A stretch of DNA of 23,291 nt, from positions 1 through 23,291 of the IMG/VR virus record IMGVR_UViG_3300043540_000606; one strand, given 5' to 3'. The translations under genes and the position numbers were made by a program. The notes under the pieces were generated by a model. It was not told where the DNA came from. It searched no databases and was given only the letters and a program-made list of their open reading frames with translations. This document shows, in pieces, positions 5,448 through 23,128 of this stretch. The stretch is from a virus. How positions within the stretch are numbered: position 1 is the first letter of the stretch; each line of letters opens with the position of its first letter.

Positions 5448-6407
5448 ATGGACATTTTAAATATAGTCAAGTTAAAGCTATCAGCAAGGGAACTAAAAGT
5501 AATGATACTTTTACAATTAGAAGGTGCGATGAGGAATAAAGATATAGTAGAAGAACTTGGGTTAACTGAAAGCAATATCTCAATAATTCTTAAAAAGTTA
5601 GAGGAAAAAGGTTATATTTTAAAAAGAGGTAGATATTATTCCTTAAATGAAAAGATATTAAATCAATATATATTAAATCAATATATTCCTGCGGGAATAC
5701 CGATGAACACTAATAGCAAAAGCACCGAGACAAAAGAGCAGTATCTTTATAATACTCCTTATATTATATCTTTAAATGATTACTATTTAAGGAATAATAA
5801 TACTAATTCAAATAATAACTTAAATAATAATTCAAATAATAATTTAAATAATAATTTAAATAATAATTTAAATAATAATTTAAATAATGAAGGGTTAAAA
5901 AATACTAAAAGAAGGAGTTTAAAGAAAATGACTCCAGAAGAACAGAAACAAGCTTTTCGACTCGTGAAAGAATTTCGTTTAATTAGAGGTTTAAAATCCT
6001 GGAACGCAACTGACCAAGAAAGGGAAATGAATCACGCTAAAAGGTTTATTATTTTAAGGAAAGAGACAGTTGAAGAACTTGTCGGCTTAATGTATCAGGT
6101 TAAAGAAAAATTATCTTTTGAATGGAGCACTTTTTGGAGTTTAGGGACTTTATGGACTAAAGAGAGTCAATGGAAGGCAAAGTTAGAAGAGTTAGAGACT
6201 AAAAAACCTTTAAATTTCCATCAGTGGTTAGATATTCATAAAGACTTGCCAGATTTAGATTATAGAACTTTGCCTACAAATCAGCAATGGGAAAGGGCAA
6301 AGCGGTTTGTTATGGCTTTCAAAAAAGCAGGAAACGAAATTATTCCAACAGCCGATGAATTGGAAAAATATCATTTGGCAGTAAAAATACTGACGGAGAA
6401 AAAATGA
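5448..6407 (+). CDS. Winged-helix replication-initiation-type protein with Asn-rich linker
   Basis: This 319-residue protein has three parts. Residues about 8-66 form a MarR-like winged helix (ARELKVMILLQLEGAMRNKDI, ESNISIILKKLEEKGYILKRG). Residues about 115-148 are an Asn-rich linker made of tandem L/S-NNN units. Residues about 158-319 form a helical, tryptophan-containing domain (FEWSTFWSLGTLWTKESQWKAKLEEL). This layout of HTH, disordered linker and helical domain is common in phage replication-initiation (DnaD/O-type) proteins, and the location after the ssDNA-binding candidate fits. An in-frame stop at 5442-5444 fixes the start at or after 5448. There is no ordinary ribosome site, only the hairpin at 5410-5436. 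Function is inferred from layout. Confidence 0.65.
   Translation: MDILNIVKLKLSARELKVMILLQLEGAMRNKDIVEELGLTESNISIILKKLEEKGYILKRGRYYSLNEKILNQYILNQYIPAGIPMNTNSKSTETKEQYLYNTPYIISLNDYYLRNNNTNSNNNLNNNSNNNLNNNLNNNLNNNLNNEGLKNTKRRSLKKMTPEEQKQAFRLVKEFRLIRGLKSWNATDQEREMNHAKRFIILRKETVEELVGLMYQVKEKLSFEWSTFWSLGTLWTKESQWKAKLEELETKKPLNFHQWLDIHKDLPDLDYRTLPTNQQWERAKRFVMAFKKAGNEIIPTADELEKYHLAVKILTEKK
5820..5891 (+). repeat. Coding 12-base minisatellite (Leu-Asn-Asn-Asn units)
   Basis: Six tandem 12-base units of the type TTAAATAATAAT, one starting with TCA and the last ending in GAA, encode residues 125-148 of the replication-type protein. Similar AAT-rich sequence extends upstream from about 5792. Because each unit is four codons, gain or loss of a unit changes linker length without a frameshift. 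Confidence 0.85.
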
Positions 6408-6418
6408 GGAGAAAAAAA

Positions 6419-6739
6419 ATGGATAGGGTTGGAAAAGATTTTAACCTGGAAAAGTTTAAAAAAGTTGCACAAGAACAACAGAAGAAGATAAGGGAAAACA
6501 CTCAAAGAGTTAAAGATGAACTCAAACGCTATTATGAAACAGGGACTTTTGTAGAGATGGTATGCAAGGATGGAAGTGGAAGGTATAATTGCAGGACTAT
6601 TTCCTCGGCACTAGAAGGAATTATTGGAGTTGTCTTAGAATTAGACGATGGAACAGTTTTAAAATTCGGAGTTACTTGTCCTTATTTTAAGAGCAGTATT
6701 TGTATTTTAACGGATAAAGGGAAAAAGAAGGAGCTATGA
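6419..6739 (+). CDS. Hypothetical protein, 106 aa
   Basis: Two starts are possible. ATG 6404 overlaps the preceding stop (ATGA) and adds MRRKK. ATG 6419 has AGGAG seven bases upstream and is preferred. The N-terminal third is a charged helix (FKKVAQEQQKKIRENTQRVKDELKRYY). The rest is a beta-rich domain (TFVEMVCKDGSGRYNCRTI, GVVLELDDGTVLKFGVTCPYFKSSICIL) with four cysteines not arranged as an obvious zinc site. Function unknown. Confidence 0.55.
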   Translation: MDRVGKDFNLEKFKKVAQEQQKKIRENTQRVKDELKRYYETGTFVEMVCKDGSGRYNCRTISSALEGIIGVVLELDDGTVLKFGVTCPYFKSSICILTDKGKKKEL

Positions 6740-6740
6740 A

Positions 6741-6887
6741 ATGGGGATAATTAGTGGGGGCAGTTTTAAAATTCGTGTTAAGAGAAAAGAATGGTTAATA
6801 GGAGCAAAGCATAAGCATTCCAGACGAAAAGTTAAGAGGCTTATCCATAAAGAGGAACGGAGGAAACTTAAGTATGGTTTTATATGA
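6741..6887 (+). CDS. Small highly basic protein, 48 aa
   Basis: An ATG at 6741 follows AAGGAG at a good distance, two bases after the preceding stop. The product is very rich in Lys, Arg and His (RVKRKEWLIGAKHKHSRRKVKR...), which suggests nucleic-acid binding. It fills an otherwise empty gap of about 150 bases. No family is recognised. Confidence 0.5.
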   Translation: MGIISGGSFKIRVKRKEWLIGAKHKHSRRKVKRLIHKEERRKLKYGFI

Positions 6888-6912
6888 ATATAAATTATAA
6901 AGGAGAAAAATT

Positions 6913-7746
6913 ATGAAAACTACGAATCGTTATAATTTGCCCGAGCCCTTTTTAAATGCGATGAAATCAAGTGAATATGAAGTAGAACCCAATAGAATTT
7001 CAGTTACTTCATTAATAGCACCACCATTAATGAGGAAATTGGCTATTGAGCATTGGGATGAAATAGAAGAAGATGTAAGTGAAAGGCTTTGGGCATTACT
7101 TGGGAGTGCTATCCATTCGGTATTGCAGAGGTACGGAGAAGGCGAGAATTTTGAAGTTGAAAAGAAGTTTGAGTTATCAGAAGATAAGTGGACTTTAGTT
7201 GGGCATACTGATTTGATAGATAAAACTCTCAAGTCTATTGAAGACTACAAAGTAACAAGTGTTTGGAGCTTTTTACTCGGGGATAAAATTGAATGGGAAA
7301 GGCAGTTAAATTGTTATGCTTACCTCGCAAGGAAGAGTGGATACGAAATTAATCATCTTTTTATCAATGCAATACTGAGGGATTGGCAAGTTAATAAAGT
7401 TGGCGAAGAAGGTTATCCAGAAATACCATTTTGGAGAAAAGAGATACCGCTTTGGACTTTAGAAGAACAAGAGTTATACATTAAAGAACGGTTGAGTTTA
7501 TTTAGCAGAGAAGCAAGAGAATGCACTGATGAAGAAAAATGGAAACGAGGCGGCGAGATTGCTCTTATGCAGGAGGGGAGAAAGAAAGCTTTAAGGCTTT
7601 ATGCTAATGAAGATGAGGCAAGCAAAGTAACTTTAACGAAAGGACAGTATTTTGAAAAACGGAAAGTTACATATTTTAGATGTTTGAATTATTGCAGAGT
7701 TCGGCAATTTTGCCCGTATAATCCTTATAGGAAGGAGGAAATATGA
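6913..7746 (+). CDS. PD-(D/E)XK nuclease with C-terminal cysteine cluster (Cas4/AddB-like)
   Basis: The 277-residue protein shows RecB-family motifs: H68 in ALLGSAIHSVLQ, D100 in GHTDLID, D111-x-K113 in IEDYKV, and the Q motif in ERQLNCYAYLAR (about 130-140). Cysteines at 204, 257, 261 and 267 match the one-plus-three spacing of Fe-S cluster nucleases such as Cas4 and AddB. Family members cut DNA ends as 5'-3' or 3'-5' exonucleases, and phage copies usually serve recombination. An adjacent helicase or annealing protein is not obvious, though the OB-fold protein at 4542 could be a partner. AAAGGAG precedes the ATG. Confidence 0.8.
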   Translation: MKTTNRYNLPEPFLNAMKSSEYEVEPNRISVTSLIAPPLMRKLAIEHWDEIEEDVSERLWALLGSAIHSVLQRYGEGENFEVEKKFELSEDKWTLVGHTDLIDKTLKSIEDYKVTSVWSFLLGDKIEWERQLNCYAYLARKSGYEINHLFINAILRDWQVNKVGEEGYPEIPFWRKEIPLWTLEEQELYIKERLSLFSREARECTDEEKWKRGGEIALMQEGRKKALRLYANEDEASKVTLTKGQYFEKRKVTYFRCLNYCRVRQFCPYNPYRKEEI

Positions 7747-7934
7747 ATAGAAAGTTAGAAAACATTGTAGTATTTGCAATTCTTATGCAGAGTAATGGAG
7801 GCATTATAGATAAATCTCCAGCATATATTTTGGAAAAGTTCAGGTGTAGAAATATGGGAATAGGTTTATTAGACCCTATCAATGAGAGAATTTTTCAGAA
7901 ATGGAAAGATAAATGGGATAAGGAAGTGAAATAA
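7743..7934 (+). CDS. Hypothetical protein, 63 aa
   Basis: The start overlaps the nuclease stop (ATGA) and has AAGGAGG upstream. The sequence (MNRKLENIVVFAILMQSNGGIIDKSPAYILEKF...) reads as a small helical protein ending in a Lys/Trp-rich tail (FQKWKDKWDKEVK). No recognised motif. Translation is probably coupled to the nuclease. Confidence 0.55.
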   Translation: MNRKLENIVVFAILMQSNGGIIDKSPAYILEKFRCRNMGIGLLDPINERIFQKWKDKWDKEVK

Positions 7935-8101
7935 TGACAATACAATTTTGGTTAGGTTTTATTATTGGTTGTTTAGCTTCAGTAGTCTTTTGGCTAATCA
8001 TTCTGGTTATTTCTCTGAGGCATGTATTAGGTGGCCTTGAAGATTTGTTTAAGCAATTCAATGAATTATCACAAGAGTTTGAAAAGGAATTTAAACACTA
8101 A
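7934..8101 (+). CDS. Small membrane protein with coiled-coil-like tail, 55 aa
   Basis: The ATG overlaps the previous stop (TAATG) after GGAAGTG. Residues about 5-28 are one hydrophobic segment (FWLGFIIGCLASVVFWLIIL). The rest is a charged helix (GGLEDLFKQFNELSQEFEKEF). A membrane anchor plus a helical cytoplasmic tail occurs in several phage small-protein classes. A holin or spanin role is not indicated by position, which is far from lysis genes. Confidence 0.55.
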   Translation: MTIQFWLGFIIGCLASVVFWLIILVISLRHVLGGLEDLFKQFNELSQEFEKEFKH

Positions 8102-8113
8102 AGGAGGTGTGTT

Positions 8114-8488
8114 ATGAGTGAAGAAGAGTCAGAGTTTGGAAAAGGTTTTATTTATAACCTTATTTTATTTGCAAAACATTGGTGGAAAAGGGTTGAGTAT
8201 AGTCATGCAATGAGGAAAATTAATAACCCAGAAGAGGGCGCTTTAGAATTATGGTTCAATGGAGCTTCTGACCATTTGTACGAATTGGAAATTCCCGAAA
8301 AATTTAAAGGAACTGAAATTGAAGAGATAGCAAAATTTATTAGGGAAAAAGGGTTAGAATTTGGGCATGGCTTTAAAGAAAAACCAACTCAAAAGGATTT
8401 TGACGAAATTTTTGATAAACTTGAGAAACTTGCTATGCTCGTAGATAAAGAATTAGGTCTTGAAGATGTTGAAGCAGAATGGAAGTAA
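8114..8488 (+). CDS. Hypothetical protein, 124 aa
   Basis: AAAGGAGG precedes the ATG. The N-terminus is acidic, then a Trp-rich amphipathic stretch (YNLILFAKHWWKRVEY). The core GALELWFNGASDHLYELEIPEKF looks like a compact alpha/beta domain, followed by helices (IEEIAKFIREKG, DEIFDKLEKLAMLVDKELG). No catalytic motif or membrane segment is obvious. Function unknown. Confidence 0.65.
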   Translation: MSEEESEFGKGFIYNLILFAKHWWKRVEYSHAMRKINNPEEGALELWFNGASDHLYELEIPEKFKGTEIEEIAKFIREKGLEFGHGFKEKPTQKDFDEIFDKLEKLAMLVDKELGLEDVEAEWK

Positions 8489-8490
8489 AC

Positions 8491-8808
8491 ATGGATACAA
8501 AATATAAGTTTGCTTATTCAATTAAAGATGGGTATCTTTTTAAAAAGGCAAAGAAGAGTAAACACTTCCTGGAAAGTCCTGAAGCGATTGCTGTTGACAA
8601 AGATGTTTTTAAGAAAGCAGTTAAGATGAGCCATATAATAGGAGTTAAGGTTTATGAGGTAGAGCATGGGGTTACCTATATAGCGTCGTTGGAAAACTTT
8701 ATAATAAATTCAATTCTCATAGATAGGGGCTTTGGTGAGCAATATGCACTTCCCCTGGAATATTGGGAGAAAGAAGGAAAAGGGTTTGTAAAAGATAGGT
8801 TATTATGA
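8491..8808 (+). CDS. Hypothetical protein, 105 aa
   Basis: Starts at 8479 (MEVNMDTKY) and 8491 (MDTKY) are both possible. The second follows the previous stop and has GGAAG just upstream, so it is preferred, though weakly. The protein mixes strands and helices (YKFAYSIKDGYLF, VFKKAVKMSHIIGVKVYEVEHGVTYIASLENF). No known domain is recognised. Confidence 0.55.
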   Translation: MDTKYKFAYSIKDGYLFKKAKKSKHFLESPEAIAVDKDVFKKAVKMSHIIGVKVYEVEHGVTYIASLENFIINSILIDRGFGEQYALPLEYWEKEGKGFVKDRLL

Positions 8809-8817
8809 GGAAAAGGG

Positions 8818-8946
8818 ATGTATTCTAAGTTGTTCAGAAAAAAGAAAAAAGTCGCTATTATAAAGGCAAAGAAATTTAATTATCCTTTTGAGGATTATAC
8901 GAGGAAGTTTAAAGCGAGAGAAACGAGGAGGTTAAGATGGAGTTAG
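8818..8946 (+). CDS. Small basic protein, 42 aa
   Basis: A short frame starts at ATG 8818 after GAGG and AAAAGGG. The product is Lys/Arg-rich (KLFRKKKKVAIIKAKKF). It overlaps the next gene by ten bases and contains that gene's GAGGAGG site. It fills an otherwise empty 128-base gap; its size makes it uncertain. Confidence 0.45.
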   Translation: MYSKLFRKKKKVAIIKAKKFNYPFEDYTRKFKARETRRLRWS

Positions 8947-9206
8947 GGACAATTGTATGGACAAGGAGTATTAACGAAAGAGTTGCAAGAGATTTAAAAT
9001 TTGCTGAATTTGTGGCAGCAAGTTTTAAAAGGTATTGCAAAGGAGACTTTGGAGAGTTATGCGATGAAGACAAAAAGGAAAATGAATTGGCTTTGAAAGA
9101 AGGATATAGGATACTTGCAAGTTACAAGTATGGTAAGGAAAAAATATGGATAATAACCGAAGCCGATAGGAGTGTAACGACGATTTTATTCCCCGAGGAT
9201 TATTAA
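8937..9206 (+). CDS. Conserved 'plasmid-related' family protein, 89 aa
   Basis: The sequence closely resembles a small family found on plasmids, phages and genomic islands, often labelled plasmid-related protein or (wrongly) type I restriction subunit M. Recognisable parts are GTIVWTRSINERVA near the start, the core CKGDFGELCDEDKKENELALKEG, and the end IWIITEADRSVTTILFPEDY. From memory of the family, not a search, function is unknown. It is one compact domain without membrane segments. A GAGGAGG ribosome site gives high confidence in the gene. Confidence 0.8.
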   Translation: MELGTIVWTRSINERVARDLKFAEFVAASFKRYCKGDFGELCDEDKKENELALKEGYRILASYKYGKEKIWIITEADRSVTTILFPEDY

Positions 9207-9207
9207 G

Positions 9208-9375
9208 ATGTATAAGTACGAAGAATTATTAAGGCGATGGAAGAAGTGGACAGAGAAGAAGCAATACCTTGAAAGTTTTAGGTTTTTAAACTCAATATCA
9301 GAAAAAAGGCGGTTGGCAAAAGTAACAACTTGTAATAAAAGGCTTGATGAAATAAATAAGGAGTTAGGAAGATAG
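9208..9375 (+). CDS. Small coiled-coil-like protein, 55 aa
   Basis: The ATG follows the previous stop by one base, with GAGG nine bases upstream. The product is a strongly charged, helical, Trp-containing sequence (YEELLRRWKKWTEKKQYLESF... RLDEINKELG), typical of small two-helix phage proteins. Function unknown. Confidence 0.5.
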   Translation: MYKYEELLRRWKKWTEKKQYLESFRFLNSISEKRRLAKVTTCNKRLDEINKELGR

Positions 9376-12431: not shown

Positions 12432-13145
12432 ATGGAAGTTAAGAAGATTGAAGGCTGGGATAAGATTAATTATCCTACACCGATGTTTGTAAGAATGTCA
12501 ATTGTTTACGCCGTGGCACTTGTTTTAAGTAATGTCATTGCAGTTAAAATTTGGCACATTGGAAACTACATTTTCTTGCCAGCAGCAGTTATTCTTTTTC
12601 CAATTGTTTATATTGTTTCTGATGTGATGACAGAAGTCTATGGTATGAAATTATCCTTACTGGCTATTCGTATGAATGTAGTTGTAAATGTCTTGCTTGT
12701 CTTTGTAACTTGGTTAGCAACAAAACTACCTCCAGCAATATTTAGTCAAAATATGCAAGTTGGTTTTCAAACAATATTTCATTGGACTTGGAGAATAGTA
12801 GTTGCATCCATGATAGGTTATTATTTAGGGGACTGGTCTAATAGTGCAGTAATTTCAAGAATGAAGGTTTTACAGAAAGGTAAAAATTTTCCTTGGAGAG
12901 CTTGGGTTTCAACCGTAGTGGGTGAAGGTATTGATACACTTTGTTTTATAACAATAGCGTTTGCAGGGACGATGCCTTTGAAAGCTCTTCTAACTATGAT
13001 TTTAGCGCAGTATTTGTTTAAGATTAGTTATGAGGCAGTATGCCTTCCTATAACAACAAGAGTTACAAGGTGGTGGAAGAAAAAAGAATCATTTGAAGTG
13101 TATGATTATACAGATGACCTTATAAAAACTTATAGACCGCTTTAG
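12432..13145 (+). CDS. yhhQ: Queuosine-precursor transporter (YhhQ/VUT family)
   Basis: The 237-residue polytopic membrane protein has about six transmembrane segments and the signatures of the vitamin-uptake-like VUT family: LSNVIAVKIW, FPIVYIVSDVMTEVYG, a WSNSAVISRMK loop, and RAWVSTVVGEGIDTLCFI. YhhQ imports preQ0/preQ1 in bacteria. The length is normal (YhhQ is about 220 residues) and the tail is acidic and hydrophilic. The start follows AGGAG in the structured leader. Adjacent queF and dpdA-like genes make precursor salvage for DNA modification the natural role. Precise substrate (preQ0, preQ1 or both) is inferred. Confidence 0.88.
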   Translation: MEVKKIEGWDKINYPTPMFVRMSIVYAVALVLSNVIAVKIWHIGNYIFLPAAVILFPIVYIVSDVMTEVYGMKLSLLAIRMNVVVNVLLVFVTWLATKLPPAIFSQNMQVGFQTIFHWTWRIVVASMIGYYLGDWSNSAVISRMKVLQKGKNFPWRAWVSTVVGEGIDTLCFITIAFAGTMPLKALLTMILAQYLFKISYEAVCLPITTRVTRWWKKKESFEVYDYTDDLIKTYRPL

Positions 13146-13154
13146 GAGGTAATT

Positions 13155-13613
13155 ATGGAGTATGTTTCAAAGATTGAGGAGATGTCCGATGCAGAGTTAG
13201 AAAAAAGAATAAAAGACACTCTGGCAGTTAAATTAAAAGCTATTAAGGTTATACCTTTCATAGCAGTCGAGAAACCTACGATTGAATATGTTTACCCAGA
13301 ATTAATAGCAAGATGTCCAATGACAGGTATAAAGGACCTTTATAAAGTAAAAATTAAATTTATCCCTAATGGAAAGATACCAGAACTTAAAAGTTTAAAA
13401 TACTATTTTATGGCTTATGAAGAAATTCCAATTTCACACGAATACTTAACTGTAAAGATTTATGAAGATTTCCAGAATACCATTCAACCACATAAGTTAG
13501 CAGTTGTATTGTTTGTAGCTACTCGTGGAGAAATTATAACTACAGTTGAATATGGAGACAAAGAGCTTCTCGATTTTGGAAGGGCAAAACAAGATGAGGA
13601 TTTTGGAAGATAG
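13155..13613 (+). CDS. queF: NADPH-dependent 7-cyano-7-deazaguanine reductase QueF
   Basis: This 152-residue protein matches unimodular QueF. Active-site Cys54 lies in YPELIARCPMTG and Asp61 in the following KDLY, near-identical in position to Bacillus Cys55/Asp62. The QueF motif E-L-K-S-L-K-Y-Y at 77-84 fits the E(S/L)K(S/A)hK(L/Y)(Y/F/W) pattern for NADPH binding, and HE at 95-96 matches the substrate-binding pair. QueF reduces the nitrile of preQ0 to the aminomethyl of preQ1. The retained motif argues against the amidinotransferase variant QueF-L. AGGAGG precedes the start; it lies nine bases after the transporter. PreQ1 would feed the transglycosylase encoded next. Confidence 0.9.
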   Translation: MEYVSKIEEMSDAELEKRIKDTLAVKLKAIKVIPFIAVEKPTIEYVYPELIARCPMTGIKDLYKVKIKFIPNGKIPELKSLKYYFMAYEEIPISHEYLTVKIYEDFQNTIQPHKLAVVLFVATRGEIITTVEYGDKELLDFGRAKQDEDFGR

Positions 13614-13616
13614 ATT

Positions 13617-15002
13617 ATGAAGTTGTATTTTGTAGTTAATGAGGCAAGCTTTAAATTTTTCCGTAATTCTGAGATTAAAAGATTTTTGATTTGCTATTAT
13701 TACTCTAAAGATATTTACCTTAAACATCTTTTTAGGGGTTTTAAACTTGATGACTTATTTTTGGATTCGGGTGGATTTGAGGCATTGAAAAATGGAGCAA
13801 AAATAGATGTTAAGCAGTATGTGCAGTATGTTAAAAGAAACTCTGATATGTTAACTGTGTATGCTAATCTTGATTCAGAGGACATTGGAGAAAGTGCGGG
13901 AAACCTGGAATTTATGGAACAAGAAGGATTAAAACCTATTCCAGTTTGGCACGCCACAGAACCCATAGACCTATTTGAAAAGATGTCCGAAAAGTATCCG
14001 TATGTTGCAGTTGGTGGAGTAGAATACGGGGCAAATAAAGAGATTACTGAAAGAATTACAAGAGAGATATTCCCTATTGCGGAAAGAAATAAAACTAAAA
14101 TTCATTCTTTTGGTATGACCTTTGTACATTTGTTAAGAGATTATCCCTTTTACTCTGCTGATTCATCAACTTGGACAGCTGGCATGAGATATGGGACAGT
14201 CTTTAACTTTGATAACAGGAAGAACTTAATTGGTAAAGTCTGGAGGGACGATAAACATTTCTTAGTTCAGGCATTCAATAAAGCAAAAGAAGTGGGATTG
14301 GATATAAATGAATCTTTGTTTATGAAAGGAGATGGACGGGAAATTACGAAATGGAATGTTTATATATGGAAACTCTTATCAGATGAATTGGAGCAGAAAA
14401 ATGATACATACTGGGAAGAAGAAAATAGCCGAGAAGCCGAACTGAAAATTTCGAAAAGTCCAGGGGATAGACTTCCACCAGAAACGAAAGGCAAGATAGC
14501 AGAAATAGTTAAAGACCCTCAAATAGAAGCAAAACGATTAGCGAGGTTAAGAGAAAGCTTAACAGACTTTAGAACAGGAAAGTATGCCACGAATTTACCT
14601 TATTATTGTAATAATTGCTATGTAAAAGACAAGTGTCCTTTCTATCAAGCACCCAAGAATCCAGACGATAAGGTATTATGTGCATTACGAGATGAATTTA
14701 AGAAATGGTTTTCACCTAAAGATTTTGATTACAGAGAAGAAGAAATTGTAAACCAGACTCGAAGTCGTATAATCAATATTCTATTACAAAGAGCGGCATT
14801 CAACTTATGGGCTGAACTTCTCGATGGGGGAATTCAAGATAAAGCTCTAACAAGTTTATTGAATGGGATAGTGGATAGGTTGGAGAGAAAAGTCCCACTT
14901 ATCCAACAGGTAAATGAAGGCAGTGGAGATATAATTATGGTTCCTGCTGAAGAAGTGAAGAAATTGGCAGAGAAGCTTTCAAATAAGGTGAAAGATGATT
15001 GA
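13617..15002 (+). CDS. dpdA: DpdA/TGT-like DNA guanine transglycosylase with C-terminal Cys-rich domain
   Basis: Residues about 1-260 form a TGT-like barrel: DSGGF at 50-54 (general-acid/base Asp of TGT), AVGGVEYG at 131-138 (like ALGGV in TGT), KIHSFGMT near 161-168, and DSSTW at 182-186, where the nucleophilic Asp lies in DpdA proteins. The TGT zinc site CXCX2C is not seen in the core. DpdA enzymes swap guanine in DNA for a 7-deazaguanine; here preQ1 is the likely base. Residues about 300-461 are extra: basic helices, then C331-x2-C334-x5-C340 and C355 (a likely zinc or Fe-S site), then a helical tail. The gene ends inside the start of the large terminase, where a small terminase gene is expected and none is seen. 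The start has a weak GGAAG site. Confidence 0.8.
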   Translation: MKLYFVVNEASFKFFRNSEIKRFLICYYYSKDIYLKHLFRGFKLDDLFLDSGGFEALKNGAKIDVKQYVQYVKRNSDMLTVYANLDSEDIGESAGNLEFMEQEGLKPIPVWHATEPIDLFEKMSEKYPYVAVGGVEYGANKEITERITREIFPIAERNKTKIHSFGMTFVHLLRDYPFYSADSSTWTAGMRYGTVFNFDNRKNLIGKVWRDDKHFLVQAFNKAKEVGLDINESLFMKGDGREITKWNVYIWKLLSDELEQKNDTYWEEENSREAELKISKSPGDRLPPETKGKIAEIVKDPQIEAKRLARLRESLTDFRTGKYATNLPYYCNNCYVKDKCPFYQAPKNPDDKVLCALRDEFKKWFSPKDFDYREEEIVNQTRSRIINILLQRAAFNLWAELLDGGIQDKALTSLLNGIVDRLERKVPLIQQVNEGSGDIIMVPAEEVKKLAEKLSNKVKDD

Positions 15003-16248
15003 ATTATACGACGCACTGGATTTTATTAAAAAAGAAAAACACAGTAGTAGTGTAATGATGTTTACAGGTGTTTTTGAAAAGGTTAAAGAAGCCTACGAAC
15101 AAAACAAAAGGCATATTTGGATTGAAGGTGGAACTTCTGCGAGCAAGACCTGGAGTATTTTACAATTCCTTATTTATATAGCAAGGACAGCAAAGTCTCC
15201 GTTACTTATTTCAATTGTCTCTGAAAGTTATCCTCATCTTAGACGAGGCGCAATGAGGGACTTTTTTAGGATTTTAAATGAATCACAGGATAATAACCCA
15301 AGATTTAATAAATCAGACCATATTTATAATTTTGGGAATGGTAAGGTTGAATTCTTCTCGGCAGACCAGCCAGACAAATTAAGAGGTGCAAGAAGAGATA
15401 TTCTTTTTATAAATGAGGTTAATAATATTTCTTATGATTCTTTTAGAGAGTTGGATTCACGAACGAGGCTTTGCACCATTTGCGACTGGAACCCTGTAGG
15501 TGAATTCTTTTTCCATACTAATAGATTGAAAGATAGACCTGACAGTTACTATATTCATGCAACTTATAGAGATGCTTTAAATGTAGTGCCTCCAGAAGTT
15601 ATAGATAACATTTTGGCAACAGGAGAGGATGACCCGAATTGGAAGCATATTTACATAGATGGGCTTTTAGGAAAAGTTGAAGGGCTTGTATATCCACACT
15701 TTGAAATAGTTAAAGAATTACCTCAAGGAGATTATTTCTATGGGCTTGATTTTGGGTATTCAAATGACCCGACCGTTCTTGTAAAAGAAGTACTTATTGG
15801 AGATTCTTTGTATATGCAAGAACTTATCTATGAAACAGGACTTACAAATCAGAAGATTGGTGAGAAGATGGAAGAGCTTGGAGTCAGAAAACACTATGAT
15901 GAAATATTTGCAGATTCAGCAGAACCGAAATCTATTGAAGAAATTAGTTTAATGGGTTTTAATATCAAAGGCGTTGAAAAAGGACCTGGAAGTGTCGAAT
16001 ATAGGCGTCAGAAGAGAAGGCAGTATAAACAATATTGGACAGAAGATTCAATTAATTGTATTAAAGAACAACGAAATTTTAGATACATAGAAGACAAGGA
16101 TGGAAAGTTAACCGAGAAAACTACTCATGTTTGGAGTCATGGGATGGATGCAGTGGATTATGGTTTAATGGGGAAACTGGGAATTAGAAACCTGATATTG
16201 GCTCCCGAAGGAGTAGATAAAGAAAGCACTTGGAGGCGATATGGATAA
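14995..16248 (+). CDS. terL: Terminase large subunit (PBSX/Terminase_3 type)
   Basis: The 417-residue packaging motor-nuclease has Walker A GGTSASKT at 45-52, Walker B ILFINE ending at E141, and RNase-H-like nuclease aspartates in GLDFGYSNDPT (D252), ADSAEP (D307) and the final GMDAVDYG (D385/D388). It hydrolyses ATP to drive DNA into the prohead and cuts the concatemer. Length and motif order are normal for the SPP1/PBSX type. The start (ATGATTGA) overlaps the DpdA-like stop by eight bases, with AAGGTG upstream, so the two genes are translationally tied. Confidence 0.95.
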   Translation: MIELYDALDFIKKEKHSSSVMMFTGVFEKVKEAYEQNKRHIWIEGGTSASKTWSILQFLIYIARTAKSPLLISIVSESYPHLRRGAMRDFFRILNESQDNNPRFNKSDHIYNFGNGKVEFFSADQPDKLRGARRDILFINEVNNISYDSFRELDSRTRLCTICDWNPVGEFFFHTNRLKDRPDSYYIHATYRDALNVVPPEVIDNILATGEDDPNWKHIYIDGLLGKVEGLVYPHFEIVKELPQGDYFYGLDFGYSNDPTVLVKEVLIGDSLYMQELIYETGLTNQKIGEKMEELGVRKHYDEIFADSAEPKSIEEISLMGFNIKGVEKGPGSVEYRRQKRRQYKQYWTEDSINCIKEQRNFRYIEDKDGKLTEKTTHVWSHGMDAVDYGLMGKLGIRNLILAPEGVDKESTWRRYG

Positions 16249-17512
16249 TAAAATTGACGAGAACACTTTCCTTGAGTTAGGTGTTACAGGTCTTTCAAGG
16301 TGGGGAGGGACAGTAAATGAAGAATTCTTACCTGAATTACAGGGTAGGAAAGCAATTCAAGTTTACAGGGAGATGTCCAACAATGACCCAATTATCGGGG
16401 CAATCTTATTTGCAATCAAAATGTTATGCAGGCAGGTTGTTTGGCGAGTAGAGTTAGGAGGAGATACTGACGAGGATAAAAAGGCAAAAGATTTTTTAGA
16501 AAGTTGTATGAACGATATGTCTACAAGCTGGGAAGATACAATAAGCGAAATCCTTTCTATGCTTACTTATGGCTTTTCTTATCATGAAATAGTTTATAAG
16601 CTAAGATTAGGAGACCAAGATGATTCGTCTAAAAAGAGTAAGTATAATGATGGTTTAATTGGTTGGAGAAAGCTTTCTATTCGTTCACAAGAAACACTTT
16701 ATGAATGGGTATTTGATACTGCTGGCGGTATTCAAGGGATGAAGCAAATTGCACCACCTGATTATAGGGTTTGTTTTATACCAATAGAAAAAGCTTTGTT
16801 ATTCCGAACGGAAGTAACAAAAGGGAATCCAGAAGGAAGGTCAATTTTAAGGAATGCTTATAGACCTTGGCATATGAAAAAGAGCATTGAAGATATTGAA
16901 GGCATAGGGATTGAAAGAGATTTAGCAGGTTTACCCGTTGCATGGGTTCCACCTGAAGTGTCATCTCCATCAACTGATGAAGGAAGAACGGCCCTTGAAA
17001 AGTTTAAAACTCTCGTCACTAAAGTAAGGAGAGACCAGCAAGAAGGAATTATTATGCCTCTTGACTACGATGAGAGAGGGAATAAAAGGTATGATTTTAC
17101 CCTTTTAAGTTCGTCTGGTCGGCAGTTTGATGTTGATAAAGTAATCAACCGGTATAATCAACAAATAGCGCAAACTGTGTTAGCAGATTTTATTATGTTA
17201 GGAACTGAGAAAGTTGGAAGTTATGCGTTATCAAGCAATAAGACTCATATCTTTGCGCTTGCAATTGGAGCTTTCCTTGATGAGATAGAAGGAGTTTTAA
17301 ACACTCATGCAGTCCCGAGGTTGTTTAAGTTAAATCCTTTCAATGTCGAAGAATTTCCTAAAATAAAGCATGGAGAGGTAGAATCAGTCGATTTAACTGA
17401 ACTTGGAGACTTTATCAGTAAATTAGCATCAGCTGGTATGCCGCTATTTCCTAATGCAGACCTTGAAGAATATTTACTAAAGGTTGCGAATTTGCCAGGG
17501 GCGAATAAATGA
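16241..17512 (+). CDS. Portal protein (DUF935/Mu gp29-like)
   Basis: The 423-residue protein resembles the DUF935 portal family: early YREMSNNDPIIGAILFAIKMLCRQVVWRV, SEILSMLTYGFSYHEIVYKL, then LAGLPVAWVPPEV and a late region with DFIMLGTEKVGSYALSSNKTHIF. Portals form the dodecameric ring through which DNA enters and leaves. It overlaps the terminase gene by eight bases and the minor head gene by four, the usual packaging order. Confidence 0.9.
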   Translation: MDNKIDENTFLELGVTGLSRWGGTVNEEFLPELQGRKAIQVYREMSNNDPIIGAILFAIKMLCRQVVWRVELGGDTDEDKKAKDFLESCMNDMSTSWEDTISEILSMLTYGFSYHEIVYKLRLGDQDDSSKKSKYNDGLIGWRKLSIRSQETLYEWVFDTAGGIQGMKQIAPPDYRVCFIPIEKALLFRTEVTKGNPEGRSILRNAYRPWHMKKSIEDIEGIGIERDLAGLPVAWVPPEVSSPSTDEGRTALEKFKTLVTKVRRDQQEGIIMPLDYDERGNKRYDFTLLSSSGRQFDVDKVINRYNQQIAQTVLADFIMLGTEKVGSYALSSNKTHIFALAIGAFLDEIEGVLNTHAVPRLFKLNPFNVEEFPKIKHGEVESVDLTELGDFISKLASAGMPLFPNADLEEYLLKVANLPGANK

Positions 17513-18378
17513 CATTCGTTACTTCAAAGCCTAAGTTTACAATCAAAGCAAATCCAAACGCTATTTTAAGAATAGCAGATAGTAAATTACCTAAACTACA
17601 GAAGATTTTGTATCAGAATTTGAAGAGTTTAAAAGACAGTGTTTCGGTTTCTGATTTGGCAAAAGCAATTGAAAATGATGATTTATCGGGAGCAGAAAAC
17701 CTAATTGGAAGTATTGATATTAAGTCTATAGAGGATATATTTAAAGAAATCTTTGAAGCAAGTGGGAATGTTGCTATGAAATCCATTATTCGAAAGCAAG
17801 CAGTGGGAATAAGTTTTGATTTATTGAACCCGAGAGCTATTGCTTTTATAAAGAAACATACTGCAGAATTGGTAACTAATGTGTCTGATGAAAACAAGCA
17901 AGCAATAAGAGCTATTATTCAAAGAGCATTTGAAGAAGGAGGTCATCCTATGATTCAAGCTAAGAGAATAATCAATTATATAGGGCTTACTGAGAAGCAA
18001 GCGAATGCAGTCGAGAATTTTTATCAGAGACAAATCAATCAAGGTGTAAAACAATCTATAGCTGAATCTCAAACCGAAAAATATGCTGATAGGCTTTTAC
18101 AATATAGAGCACAAACAATTGCACAGACAGAAACTATGAGGGCAAGCAATGAAGGTGAAAGAGAAGGTTGGAGGCAAGAGGTGGACGCAGGAGTAATAAA
18201 TGAAAATGAATGGGAAAGAGAGTCAGTTGCTACAGATGATGAATACACTTGCGAATTTTGTTTAGATATGGATGGTAAGCGGGCTCCAATCAATGGGACT
18301 TATCCTGGAGGAGTAGAGGGTCCACCATACCATCCAAATTGCAGGTGTACTGAAATACTTGTTGAGAGGGAAAAATGA
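17509..18378 (+). CDS. Mu F-like minor head (head morphogenesis) protein
   Basis: The 289-residue protein has a helical N-terminal half and the Mu F-like C-terminal signature: AQTIAQTETMRASNEGEREGW, ATDDEYTCEFCLDMDGK, and PPYHPNCRCTEIL. The CxxC and HxxCRC clusters are typical and probably bind a metal. These proteins join portal and shell during head assembly. The start ATGA overlaps the portal stop. Confidence 0.9.
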   Translation: MTFVTSKPKFTIKANPNAILRIADSKLPKLQKILYQNLKSLKDSVSVSDLAKAIENDDLSGAENLIGSIDIKSIEDIFKEIFEASGNVAMKSIIRKQAVGISFDLLNPRAIAFIKKHTAELVTNVSDENKQAIRAIIQRAFEEGGHPMIQAKRIINYIGLTEKQANAVENFYQRQINQGVKQSIAESQTEKYADRLLQYRAQTIAQTETMRASNEGEREGWRQEVDAGVINENEWERESVATDDEYTCEFCLDMDGKRAPINGTYPGGVEGPPYHPNCRCTEILVEREK

Positions 18379-21300
18379 GCGATTTATCAAGAGAGTATTT
18401 AGAAACATTATTAGAAAAAGCGAAAGAGTATTTACCTTCTTGGCTTATGGAACAGATACGCACTGCAAGCATTCCTGCTTCAGGAGGTAAATCAAAGGGC
18501 AGGGAGTATGAACCTACTTTACTTGAAAAGATGGCTTTAGCAGATATGAAGCCAAGTAAACTTAAAAATGTTTCTGATTCAGAGCTTAGGGAAGCTTGGT
18601 TGCGGTTGAACCAGTGGTATGGAACTGCAAAGAAAAATAAGCGTGCAGTAGAAGATTTTGTAAATGCGGCTGTTTATGTAATGGATGAATTTGACAATCG
18701 GGGCTTTGAATATGATAAAAACCTGGATTTAGTTAAAGAAGCAGAGAAGCTCCGTGAAGTCCAGAAGTCAGAAGGGATTTTAAGTAAGTTAAAGGACCTT
18801 CCAGATGAAGTTGTTGTTATTCCAAATTTTGTAGATATAGTTGGTTCAGTAGCTATGGGAAAAGAAAATCCTAACGATATAGATGTATTATTTAGAGGAG
18901 ATAGGGATTGGGATAGTGGAGGTAGAAATTACCTTATTCAAGCCGATAATGTTTGGTTGCCTATTAGGAAAGTTTTAGACCCAGAGAAAAAAGGAATTCT
19001 GCATTTCATAGATTCGCCTCAAGGGAGTCATGCCGATTTTATACCTTGTTATTCACTTGTATTGAGAAAAGAAAATTTGAAACGACAAGTAGTAAAAGCG
19101 GTTTTAGAGCCTATTACCCATTATGAGCCAACAAAACCTTTGATGGCAGGTTATACTGATTTTTTTTCTGCTGATGAGCTTTGGAAAGATTGGGGAAGCA
19201 AGCAAGATTGCCCGATGTATATTTCGCCTAAGATAGATGGTTTTAGGACGATTATTCAAAAGAAAGGCAGTAAAGTAAGTATTTGGTTTGAAGATTCAAA
19301 AGAAGAGAGAGCCGATAAGCTTCCCAGTTTGGTTAAAGCATTAGAAGGGCAACCTGATTTAATTATTGAAGGCGAGTTAGTAGTCCGTCAAGGCAAGAAA
19401 TATGTTGCCCGTCCTCAAGTGCTTTCATTCTTGGCTGGCAAGATAGTTGGCATACCGGAAGTTTATTTGTATGATTTATTGTATTTAGATAAAGATGTTC
19501 ATACCCAACCGTTTTCTGAACGATTTGAGATGCTTAAAAATCTTGATTTAAAAGGCGGATTTTTTATCTTACCGCAAGAGGAAGTAGATAATCAAAAAGA
19601 TTTCTTGGATACAGCTAAGAAGATGGCATCATGGAGAAGCGATATACCTCTTGAAGGGGTAGTAGCAAGAAGGGCAGATATGCCTTATACTTTTGGAGCA
19701 ACGAATGATTATGCTAAATTCAAATTCTGGGTAGAGTTAAAAGTCAAAGTTTTGAAGGTGGTTAAAGTTGGAAATGGTTACACTTACGATTGTGCTTTAA
19801 GAAGTAATGATTCAAGAAGCGATATTCCATTGGGTAGCACCTTTGTAAGCAAAGATAAATTAGCTAATGAAGGGGATACATTGAATGTTCATATTGAAGA
19901 GCTTATTTTATACCCGGATGGTTCAGTAGCTTGGGGCAAACCTTATCCTGAAGGACCTGATAAAAGCCGCCCTGCTTATATAGTAAGCCAAGCAATCGAT
20001 ATGGCAAAGCGAGGACATTGCCTTAAAGAAGTCACTCAAAAAGGAGTGCCAAGTTCGGGAGAAGGTAAAGTAGTTTTTGTTGGCGCTTCGCCAGATAGGT
20101 GGGAGCAGGCAAGAGGAAAGCCTTTCATAGGACCTTCTGGAGAAACTTTTAATGAATTATATTTAAAACCTCTTGGACTTACTCGGAAAGATGTATTTCT
20201 AACTAATGCAGTGCCTTTGTATTTAAGTTCTGATGGTCAAGCAAGAGAACCGAGTAGTGAAGAAATCCAGGAATGGCATGATTGGTTAAAGAATGAATTA
20301 GACCGAGTCAATCCTCAAGTGGTTATTGCTTTAGGGCAAAATACTAAACAAACATTAGGAGAATTAGCAGATTTTGTGTTGCCACATCCAGCTTTAGTTA
20401 GGCGAATTGAGAAGAGCGAAGAATTAACAAGGAAGTTGAAACAAATTAAGTTAGCGTTAAGTCAGGTTAAAAAATTAGAAGAAGTTGAAACTCGAGGAAA
20501 TGCGGCTGAAAACTTTTGGAGTGAAAACTGGTATAAGATGTTTCCACCTTCTGGAAAAGGGAGATTTGTTTATCAACACCATTGGAGAGGTTTAAGTGAA
20601 GAAGAAACTAAACTTGACGAGAAAGAGCTTTTAAAAACTGACCATAGCGTTCATGGAGATTTGAGATTTGAAGATGGTGACGAACTTTGGGGCTTTACAG
20701 TATTTCTTGGAACTACTGAAGATGTTAGGAAAGCAGGTGGAGATAGGTTAAGTAGTTTAAAGCCTAATGATAATTTGCAGGGCTCATTTAAGCTTGGAGA
20801 ACCGAAAGAGTGGTTGGATGTTGGTATTAAAAAACCTTATATTAGCGAGCCAGGGCAAGTAGGTGCTACAAGTGAAAAATATTCTAAATTCTTTGCAGTT
20901 GATTATGGGACTTATGAAATGGGGGTATGGAGAGAGCACATGTTCGAAGTCTTTCTTAATGGGCAAAAATTAAAAGGCAGGTTTATAATAGAATTTGCTC
21001 CAGTAGGAGGACACAGGATTTGGTTAATAGATAAGCCTACAGACCAAACTCCATATGCAGAATCTCATAATATTGATGATGTTATGAAAGAGTTAAAAAC
21101 CAAAAAGCAGAAATATCTTATTTGGTGCAAACCTGGCGAGAAACCGAAATTAAATGTTTTGAAAATTGACAAAGAAATTTTTTGTGATATAATTAAAGCT
21201 GATAATGAGAAGCAAATAGTTGAAGGAATAGTATTAGAGCCTGATACTCTTGATACTCAAGGCGATACTATTACTGCTGATGAAATAGAGAAAGCAGCGC

Positions 21301-21530
21301 ATAGGTTCTTGGTTAAGTCAAGAGTAGTAGGAGATAGTCACAAGAAAGTAGCTGGTGCAGAAGTAGTAGAAAGCTACATCGTTCCCGATGACATTCAATT
21401 GGGGAATCAAAAAGTTAAAAAGGGTAGTTGGGTTATTGGAGTGCATGTCACAGATGATAAATTGTGGGATGCAATTAAAAATGGTGAATACACTGGTTTT
21501 AGTGTAGGAGGTTTTGCTATTCGTGAGTAG
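18375..21530 (+). CDS. Multi-enzyme head protein: nucleotidyltransferase, ATP ligase, UDG-like, LigD-like phosphoesterase and XkdF protease
   Basis: This 1051-residue protein carries at least five regions. About 145-230: pol-beta-type nucleotidyltransferase (G157-S158, D168-x-D170, D221 in HADF). About 278-540: ATP-dependent DNA ligase with K286-I-D-G, EGE at 332-334, YDLLYLD, EGVVAR at 427-432, K448-F-K450, and an OB-like segment. About 560-690: uracil-DNA-glycosylase-like fold (GKPFIGPSGE at 581-590, LTNAVP, HPALV), but without the GEAPG active-site form or the family-4 Fe-S cysteines. About 728-890: LigD-like 3'-phosphoesterase (HH at 735-736, H760-G-D762-L-R-F-E, GTYE, GQKLKGRF). About 940-1051: XkdF/S78_2 protease with H989 in GDSHKK and S1043 in GFSVGG. 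An XkdF alone is about 270 residues, so most of this is fused cargo. Combining DNA-end processing with head maturation is unusual. Activity of each domain is inferred. Confidence 0.85.
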   Translation: MSDLSREYLETLLEKAKEYLPSWLMEQIRTASIPASGGKSKGREYEPTLLEKMALADMKPSKLKNVSDSELREAWLRLNQWYGTAKKNKRAVEDFVNAAVYVMDEFDNRGFEYDKNLDLVKEAEKLREVQKSEGILSKLKDLPDEVVVIPNFVDIVGSVAMGKENPNDIDVLFRGDRDWDSGGRNYLIQADNVWLPIRKVLDPEKKGILHFIDSPQGSHADFIPCYSLVLRKENLKRQVVKAVLEPITHYEPTKPLMAGYTDFFSADELWKDWGSKQDCPMYISPKIDGFRTIIQKKGSKVSIWFEDSKEERADKLPSLVKALEGQPDLIIEGELVVRQGKKYVARPQVLSFLAGKIVGIPEVYLYDLLYLDKDVHTQPFSERFEMLKNLDLKGGFFILPQEEVDNQKDFLDTAKKMASWRSDIPLEGVVARRADMPYTFGATNDYAKFKFWVELKVKVLKVVKVGNGYTYDCALRSNDSRSDIPLGSTFVSKDKLANEGDTLNVHIEELILYPDGSVAWGKPYPEGPDKSRPAYIVSQAIDMAKRGHCLKEVTQKGVPSSGEGKVVFVGASPDRWEQARGKPFIGPSGETFNELYLKPLGLTRKDVFLTNAVPLYLSSDGQAREPSSEEIQEWHDWLKNELDRVNPQVVIALGQNTKQTLGELADFVLPHPALVRRIEKSEELTRKLKQIKLALSQVKKLEEVETRGNAAENFWSENWYKMFPPSGKGRFVYQHHWRGLSEEETKLDEKELLKTDHSVHGDLRFEDGDELWGFTVFLGTTEDVRKAGGDRLSSLKPNDNLQGSFKLGEPKEWLDVGIKKPYISEPGQVGATSEKYSKFFAVDYGTYEMGVWREHMFEVFLNGQKLKGRFIIEFAPVGGHRIWLIDKPTDQTPYAESHNIDDVMKELKTKKQKYLIWCKPGEKPKLNVLKIDKEIFCDIIKADNEKQIVEGIVLEPDTLDTQGDTITADEIEKAAHRFLVKSRVVGDSHKKVAGAEVVESYIVPDDIQLGNQKVKKGSWVIGVHVTDDKLWDAIKNGEYTGFSVGGFAIRE

Positions 21531-22398
21531 ATTAGAAGATTTGGATGTTGCAGAGGTAAGTTTAGTACCTCGTGCAGCGAATAAAAGAAAGTTTTTAATT
21601 TTAAAATCTGAGGAGGTTAGTATGGATGAAATTTTAAAAGGGATATTAGAAACTGACTTAGAGAATAAGGACAAGGTAGAAAAAGTCCTGAAAGATTCGG
21701 GACTTTCCGAAGAAGCGGCTAATGCTGTTAGGGCTGCTTTGAAAATCCTTGTTTCCTATAAAGATGAATTACCTAAAGACATTTTAGCGACTTTAGGAGA
21801 ATTAGCAGGTTATGGTTACCCTGCACCAGGTTATGGGTATCCAACTCAAAAAGCTAAAGAGGAAAACAAGGCTGAAGAAGATAAGAAGAAGTATGGCTAT
21901 CCTGCCCCAACAAAAAAGTCAGACGGTTCATACGACTTTTCTAATGTTCCTGAAGAAGTTAGACCTGCAATAGAAACTCTTTGGAAAGAGCACGATGTTG
22001 CAGTTAAGAAAGCTGCAGAGTTAGAAAAAGCTTTACAGGAAGAGAAGGATAAAGTGGCACGCAAAGAATTTATTGCTAAAGCCGCTGAATTTGATAACCT
22101 TTCAATAAAACCTGAAGAATTCGGTTTAGTATTGAAGGCAGTTGCCGAAAAAAGCCCTGAAGATTATGCAAAGCTTGAAGCTGTCCTCAAAGCTGCCAAT
22201 GAATCAATCAAACAAAGTAAAATCTTTAGCGAAATTGGTTCAAGTAGAGTTAGTGGAGGAACGGCTATGAGCAAAATTGAAGCTATAGCAAAAACATATA
22301 TTGAGAAGGATGCAAAGGTAACAAAAGAGCAAGCAATTCAAAAAGTCCTTGTTGAGCATCCCGAACTCTACGAAGAGTATTTAAAAGAGGTGAGTTAA
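21523..22398 (+). CDS. Scaffold-like protein carrying the detached XkdF C-terminal motif
   Basis: The frame opens at a TTG (21514), but GTG 21523 overlaps the preceding TAG and has AGGAGG 11 bases upstream, giving 291 residues. The first 26 (SRLEDLDVAEVSLVPRAANK) are the motif that normally ends an XkdF-type protease, so this piece sits in the +1 frame relative to the protease. Then come helices, a Tyr/Pro-rich repeat (YGYPAPGYGYP and KKYGYPAPTKK), a charged coiled coil (AAELEKALQEEKDKVARKEF), and a helical end (TKEQAIQKVLVEHPELYEEYLKEV). Position between protease and decoration protein fits a scaffold, probably cleaved by the protease. Confidence 0.7.
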   Translation: MSRLEDLDVAEVSLVPRAANKRKFLILKSEEVSMDEILKGILETDLENKDKVEKVLKDSGLSEEAANAVRAALKILVSYKDELPKDILATLGELAGYGYPAPGYGYPTQKAKEENKAEEDKKKYGYPAPTKKSDGSYDFSNVPEEVRPAIETLWKEHDVAVKKAAELEKALQEEKDKVARKEFIAKAAEFDNLSIKPEEFGLVLKAVAEKSPEDYAKLEAVLKAANESIKQSKIFSEIGSSRVSGGTAMSKIEAIAKTYIEKDAKVTKEQAIQKVLVEHPELYEEYLKEVS

Positions 22399-22399
22399 G

Positions 22400-23128
22400 A
22401 TGGCACATGAAATTCCAGTTGAAATGTTAACTTTTACCGCTGGAGCAGATTTATCGGCAAATCAGTATTATGCTGTTAAAGTAGATTCCAGTGGAAATGT
22501 GGTGCTTGCAGGTGCTGGAGAAAATGCTATTGGAATTATACAGAATAAGCCTACTTCTGGGCAAGCCGCAAGCGTTATGGTTCTTGGTGAATCAAAAGCT
22601 GTTTACGGAGCTTCAGTTACTGCAGGCGGAAATTTGTCTGTAAATGCTAATGGTAAATTGATTCCAACATCTGGAAATGCCGCTGTTATTGGTGTAGCAT
22701 TGGAAAGTGGAAGTGCTGATGAAACAAGGAGTGTATTACTGATTACCAGGACTTCGGCTGGAGCAAATCAACACTCAGTTTTGTCAATTCCAATTATACT
22801 ATCCAAGATAACTGGCGCTGTCGATGTAGTAACCAATTATGTTCCTGGTTTTGCAGGAACAATTAACAAAGTTAGTTTTGTAGTTACTGACCCAGCGACT
22901 ACAGCCTCAAAAGCAGTTACACTTAATTTGAAAATTAACACAACCGACCTTACAGGCGGAGTAGTTTCTTTGACAAGTGCAAACTGCACTCCATTGGGCA
23001 AAGTAATAGATGGAACAACGGTTACTGGGAATAATGTATTTGGTGCGACTGATTCCATTAGCGTAAAAGCGAGTAGCGTTACAGCCTTTGCTGAAGGTCA
23101 AGGCGTCTTACTCATTGTTTTAGGATAG
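22400..23128 (+). CDS. Capsid decoration/stabilising protein (DUF2190-like) with extra C-terminal beta domain
   Basis: Residues about 1-115 match small head-decoration proteins of the DUF2190 type (ADLSANQYYAVKVDSSGNVV, AIGIIQNKPTSGQAASVMV, VIGVALESG). Residues about 118-242 form a second beta-rich domain full of Thr, Ser and Val (FVVTDPATTASKAVTLNLKI), roughly doubling the usual length. The N-terminal part would bind the capsid; the C-terminal domain would be displayed outside and might bind a surface or sugar (inference). GAGGTG precedes the ATG. Confidence 0.8.
   Translation: MAHEIPVEMLTFTAGADLSANQYYAVKVDSSGNVVLAGAGENAIGIIQNKPTSGQAASVMVLGESKAVYGASVTAGGNLSVNANGKLIPTSGNAAVIGVALESGSADETRSVLLITRTSAGANQHSVLSIPIILSKITGAVDVVTNYVPGFAGTINKVSFVVTDPATTASKAVTLNLKINTTDLTGGVVSLTSANCTPLGKVIDGTTVTGNNVFGATDSISVKASSVTAFAEGQGVLLIVLG

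Follow-up and report, generated by a model that had tools for sequence, protein, structure and literature searches.

A putative DNA-end-processing polyvalent protein built onto an XkdF-type head maturation protease in uncultured viruses

The polyvalent proteins of phages, as described in the main text of the defining survey, are predicted to be packaged and injected, are encoded near virion genes, carry nucleotidyltransferases (NTases), 2H phosphoesterases and methylases predicted to act in conflict, and have their assemblin-like peptidases always at the C-terminus (Iyer et al. 2017, PMC5512222). The window analysed here, the whole 23,291 nucleotides of the IMG/VR virus record IMGVR_UViG_3300043540_000606, encodes within its head gene cluster a 1051 amino acid fusion protein that resembles them: it is a large chain in a virion-gene setting, multiple unrelated enzymatic domains are joined in it, and it ends, as some of them do, in an assembly-type peptidase. 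In concept it would be a polyvalent protein with a C-terminal protease of the assembly type, for which precedent suggests packaging and injection. The theme differs, being conflict in the polyvalent proteins, so far as that main text goes, and DNA-end repair here; the same main text mentions neither a uracil-DNA glycosylase (UDG), a LigD-type 3′-phosphoesterase (PE) or a DNA ligase within polyvalent proteins, nor XkdF. The reading that we favour, with a probability of about 0.5, is of a head-cluster polyvalent protein in which modular DNA-end-processing enzymes are built onto the XkdF head maturation protease and delivered with the genome.

Bacterial LigD, of non-homologous end joining, is likewise a single chain with a PE homologue, a ligase and a polymerase-like domain, and the metal triad of the PE is common to both. 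Unlike in LigD, the polymerase-like domain of the fusion is assigned to the Polβ superfamily and not to AEP, and a UDG and a protease are added; no AEP domain was found in the Pfam scan and no Ku was identified. The ligase is nearer to the archaeal/eukaryal enzymes, its profile scoring 3e-31 against these (3gde) and 1e-15 against the LigD ligase (1vs0), values on which a direct LigD ancestry of this domain is rejected. The analogy with LigD drawn in the original prediction is thus borne out for the PE domain and not as the ancestry of the whole protein.

The uncultured archaeal virus ANMV-1 (KP703175) encodes a protein annotated as an ATP-dependent DNA ligase (AJP62006), which is colinear with the fusion through NTase, ligase, OB fold and PE and adjoins the portal gene but, unlike the window protein, lacks both UDG and XkdF. 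Ligase, repair and portal go unmentioned in the main text of the paper on this virus. After the ligase gene of ANMV-1 (locus L002) a 1166 amino acid Cys-rich protein is encoded (5868-9368), the end of which resembles a MuF C-terminus by eye (CDYCRDMW...PPYHEHCRC), a resemblance that Pfam did not call. Stand-alone XkdF proteases, such as phiMK gp120 (156 amino acids) and Lactococcus phage ORF34, belong to the same family as the protease of the fusion and are similarly placed after terminase and portal, but they are without repair domains. The double name DNA methyltransferase/prohead protease occurs in isolate phages; phiMK gp120 (L113, 2450-2920), a DNA methyltransferase according to its record, has an XkdF match only, and its product name is probably an annotation transfer. 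Nothing specific on the fusion of repair enzymes to a head protease was found in the open-access text searched, which takes in neither the majority of subscription journals nor the 2017 paper's FTP supplement. Within that text the polyvalent kind of protein is known, while the repair-type architecture, the PE-XkdF core and its spread appear to be undescribed.

Domains of the fusion protein

The gene runs for 1051 codons without an internal stop, and its product comprises, from the N- to the C-terminus, the following domains:

18375..21530, + strand: fusion gene, 1051 amino acids, ATG at 18375 and TAG at 21528-21530, frame open
18387..18743, + strand: N-terminal helical domain (NH), conserved in the family; custom hidden Markov model (HMM), all-helical in the AlphaFold2 (AF2) model
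18798..19079, + strand: Polβ-superfamily NTase-like domain; G157-S158, D168 and D170, the third Asp common in the family (xDLVL) being S227
19155..19736, + strand: ATP-dependent ligase adenylation domain; motif I KIDGFR (K286), E334, E427 and K448/K450 intact
19734..19943, + strand: ligase OB-fold domain; custom HMM, aligned with relatives and ANMV-1
20010..20450, + strand: UDG-superfamily (family 4-like) domain; GASPD in place of GEAPG, TN (N611) and HP (H671) present
20526..21146, + strand: LigD-type PE; Q734, H736, H760, D762 and R764, equivalent to PaeLigD Gln40, His42, His48, Asp50 and Arg52
21189..21524, + strand: XkdF (Peptidase_S78_2) head maturation protease; H989 and S1043 invariant

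The original prediction had named an NTase, an ATP-dependent ligase, a UDG-like fold, a LigD-like PE and an XkdF-type protease on one polypeptide, and these identities are upheld, that of the NTase least firmly. By sequence profile and predicted structure the identity of the PE is certain for the family, and weak in the single window sequence, which matched LigD_N at 0.019, below the cut-off. Among the family members 27 of 65 matched LigD_N singly; the PE profile retrieved from the PDB, up to an E-value of 1, five LigD-PE chains only (best 8e-5), and the AF2 model (pLDDT 94.2) had seven LigD-PE chains as its only confident Foldseek matches (probability 1.00). In the LigD of P. aeruginosa (PaeLigD), His42, His48, Asp50 and Arg52 bind manganese and phosphate (PMC8656161). 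Their counterparts, set by motif order and the HMMER alignment, with the first His outside that alignment, are conserved across the family (H736 in 69/69, H760 in 73/73, D762 in 73/73 and R764 in 72/73). The XkdF match (residues 939-1048, E-value 1.5e-32) is above the curated cut-off, the candidate catalytic residues H989 and S1043 are present in 61 of 62 and in all 60 members, respectively, and a proteolytic role in the head is predicted.

The adenylation domain matched DNA_ligase_A_M above its curated cut-off (residues 280-450, E-value 5.8e-12); motifs I, III, IV and V are all present (KIDGFR, EGELV, LEGVVAR and AKFKF), and the motif I Lys is kept in 57 of the 58 members scored. The OB-fold assignment had no library match and is based on position and pattern. 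Judged by sequence, the PE, ligase and protease retain their main active-site residues. The UDG match is also above the curated cut-off (residues 564-681, E-value 2.6e-21), the TN and HP motifs place the domain in the superfamily, and the best PDB matches of its profile are family 4 UDG and UdgX (6e-20). Unlike these, the window domain has no four-Cys cluster and no GEAPG Glu, and it falls outside family 4 itself; the Fe-S cysteines are absent, with at most one Cys in the domain in 45 of 47 members.

The NTase is the weakest of the assignments. A near-invariant DxD among 67 members and matches to Pfam NTP_transf_2 in 4 of 51, and above the cut-off in L110 (3e-4), favour it; the window domain had no Pfam match, the fold search returned no significant match, and the combined NH and NTase profile found nothing in the PDB. 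The NH domain showed weak similarity to Pyr_excise in 2 of 51 members (best E-value 0.0021, below the cut-off). Were it a pyrimidine-dimer glycosylase, as those two weak matches would suggest, it would supply an apurinic/apyrimidinic (AP) lyase.

Relatives, gene order and module exchange

A search for relatives with the window protein as single query returned nothing. tblastn with the PE part led to ANMV-1, and with the window and ANMV-1 as a query pair the number of viral contigs rose from 8 to 34 and then to 78, together with 4 genome contigs. The non-redundant set comprises 81 loci, ANMV-1 included, plus the window; 73 have the PE and 62 have both PE and XkdF. The commonest architecture, NH-NTase-methyltransferase-ligase-OB-UDG-PE-XkdF, has 15 members and the exact order of the window, which lacks the methyltransferase, has 12 with the window counted; NH-NTase-methyltransferase-ligase-OB-PE-XkdF follows with five, and NH-UDG-PE-XkdF and NH-NTase-ligase-OB-PE-XkdF with four each, these counts being partly lowered by contig ends and counting twice a few contigs that are nearly identical between samples (e.g. 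L092/L093). Rarer forms extend down to NH-PE-XkdF (L031), and the minimal forms, this one and NH-UDG-PE-XkdF, point to PE-XkdF as the core. Around it the NTase, methyltransferase, ligase and UDG are variably present, the methyltransferase in 24 of the 62 members with PE and XkdF, and the UDG stands at a shuffled position in L033.

Other modules were also seen. Class I methyltransferases are among those added, D12-type adenine methylase domains lie within the chain in L011, L012, L034, L047 and L110, and single members contain a metallo-β-lactamase fold, a 2H phosphoesterase (L072) or an intein. The 2592 amino acid protein of L110 (3644-11419) has intein-splicing and LAGLIDADG/HNH domains, with fragmented ligase and PE matches. 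L116 is a second, diverged copy in a metagenome-assembled genome (MAG) labelled Dehalococcoides, where it consists of two adjacent reading frames (NH-ligase-OB and PE).

The presence of the methyltransferase matches the type of ligase motif I: KxNG was found in all 25 scored ligases of methyltransferase-containing proteins, while those without the module mostly have KxDG (24 D vs 5 N), as does the window with its canonical KIDGFR. This indicates that ligase and methyltransferase travel together. In the window the NH, NTase, UDG and XkdF domains are nearest to the L006/L008/L016/L034 lineage (60-80% identity) and the ligase-OB to L065/L078 (59% and 56% for the ligase). These patterns show gain, loss and exchange of modules around the PE-XkdF core. 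Median dN/dS per domain was 0.18-0.31 and no pair exceeded 0.48; the values come from a simple Nei-Gojobori count over close pairs, the window, whose relatives are saturated, not being among them, and they show purifying selection on all domains.

The position of the gene is conserved. A MuF or portal gene lies upstream in 48 of the 56 loci with enough upstream sequence, in 35 within 300 bp, a scaffold-like gene lies downstream in 50 of the 62 with downstream sequence, and the terminase large subunit (TerL) is upstream in 32 of 39; the order terminase, portal, MuF, fusion, scaffold is conserved. Recurrence of architecture and synteny in tens of independent contigs is more than chance. The neighbours in the window, in agreement with the head-cluster location given in the original prediction, are:

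14995..16248, + strand: TerL, by profile matches
16241..17512, + strand: portal protein of Mu type, by profile matches
17509..18378, + strand: MuF-like head morphogenesis protein, its 3′ end overlapping the start of the fusion gene
21523..22398, + strand: scaffold-like head gene, its GTG start overlapping the fusion stop, with TAGGAGG upstream
22400..23128, + strand: phrog_673 head protein, the label standing for head scaffolding protein

The fusion gene, between the MuF-like and scaffold-like genes, occupies the slot of the stand-alone XkdF protease in other phages. Its junction with the scaffold-like gene has the form of translational coupling, and a programmed frameshift into the latter is unnecessary, as the GTG start with its Shine-Dalgarno sequence overlaps the fusion stop. 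The scaffold-like gene begins with the motif RLEDLDVAEVSLVPRAANKRKF, and a similar motif begins the XkdF protease gene of a Lactococcus phage (L003:3292-4341). Directly upstream of the terminase (12432-15002) are three genes resembling a 7-deazaguanine cassette, possibly for DNA modification: a YhhQ-type transporter (Vut_1, 8e-40), a QueF-like protein (1e-12) and a queuine tRNA-ribosyltransferase-like protein (phrog_887, 4e-51).

The family is common in metagenomes and nearly absent from the 50,697 phage records. When these were compared with fragments of three family members, the NTase-ligase-PE module was found only in ANMV-1, without the protease, the remaining matches being ordinary XkdF proteases, ligases and UDGs; tblastn with only the NTase part as query returned nothing from these records. 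Those relatives that are named in the records (SURF and JdFR MAGs, ANMV-1) stem from the subsurface or from seeps.

Possible roles of the fusion

Fusion to a protease that acts inside the prohead, together with the location in the head gene cluster, suggests most simply that the enzymes enter the prohead. The release, packaging and ejection put forward in the original prediction are plausible by analogy with polyvalent proteins, and the protein is probably a kit for end healing, which its protease would direct to the prohead and which would be delivered with the genome. Several findings weigh against this. Eleven loci have a PE with no XkdF detected, some on truncated contigs, and ANMV-1 and L011 are without it, so the protease cannot be the sole reason for the head-cluster location. 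PaeLigD His84 and Tyr88 are required for activity (PMC8656161), and counterparts were not recognised in the PE sequence, which has the invariant K806 and W813 there instead. Motif I of the ligase is KxNG in 31 of the 58 scored members. In the window a Ser replaces the third Asp of the NTase (57 of 65 members have the Asp, and 7 have Ser), and the GEAPG Glu is Ala in the window UDG and replaced in nearly all those of the family; with each lacking one usual catalytic residue, the activity of both is uncertain, and uracil excision is not assured because the Glu is missing and the Fe-S cysteines are absent. The chain also has no AP lyase or endonuclease, so that base-excision repair, another element of the original prediction, would be incomplete.

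The main rival places their activity in the producing cell: held at the portal or prohead by the protease, the enzymes would heal nicks and blocked ends of the concatemer so that the terminase is not stalled, and would then be cut off and lost. The same synteny and protease fusion fit this, ATP and dNTPs are present in that cell, and members without XkdF still adjoin the portal gene (ANMV-1, L011, L090 and L104); free proteins could, however, carry out late repair, and fusion to a protease that cuts the enzymes off is not explained by such a role itself. We regard it as rather unlikely. A conflict protein, directed on entry at host targets or defences (by nucleotidyl transfer to host protein or RNA, or by masking or methylating the entering DNA) with repair secondary, has the polyvalent precedent on its side, as well as the methyltransferase modules, the 2H domain of L072 and the D12 methylases of L034, L047 and L110. 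The invariant core is, however, a DNA 3′-end phosphoesterase, and ligase and UDG are among its most frequent partners, which is a repair set and not a toxin set; a conflict role is improbable.

Loss of the UDG Glu, the KxNG ligases and the Ser-for-Asp NTases would also suit pseudo-enzymes serving as internal core or scaffold mass or as DNA binders in the head. Against this are the invariant PE triad, the ligase Lys, the canonical ligase motifs of the window and dN/dS values of roughly 0.3 at most for each domain, and a filler of this kind is more improbable still. An assembly chimera, which the original prediction had considered, or a chance read-through of adjacent genes has a negligible probability: the window ligase-OB does derive its closest match from another lineage than the other domains, but the same joined architecture occurs in tens of independent contigs, the frame of the window gene is open throughout, and two in-frame crossovers with 30-40% divergence from both lineages are the mark of natural recombination, not misassembly. 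The independent relatives, about 70 from separate metagenomes, refute the chimera.

Under the favoured reading, delivery of end-processing enzymes with the genome, the fusion protein would enter the prohead with the scaffold or core by means of its protease, which would cut the scaffold and probably its own linkers. The freed repair domains would remain on the DNA after packaging and accompany it into the next cell, where the PE would clean blocked 3′ ends (3′-phosphate, 3′-ribonucleotide) to leave 3′-OH ends, the NTase-like domain may fill a gap or add nucleotides, the ligase would seal, and the UDG-like domain may find or remove uracil; a genome damaged during long extracellular storage could in this way be healed before replication. 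The full proposal, that a widespread group of uncultured tailed viruses carries a self-contained kit for break and base repair in its head protease, which is freed by proteolysis in the head and repairs the genome on entry, is put forward tentatively, at slightly less than even odds.

We know of no case in which virion-borne genome repair at entry with such a set has been shown for tailed phages. In the subsurface and seep habitats of the named relatives, packaged DNA would be seriously exposed to slow decay and deamination. With its many natural combinations of modules the family could be used to ask which of the repair steps are important, and the PE-XkdF core is a clear target for assay. 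If the proposal is true, it would show that entering viral genomes are mended by the virus's own enzymes, borne in the particle.

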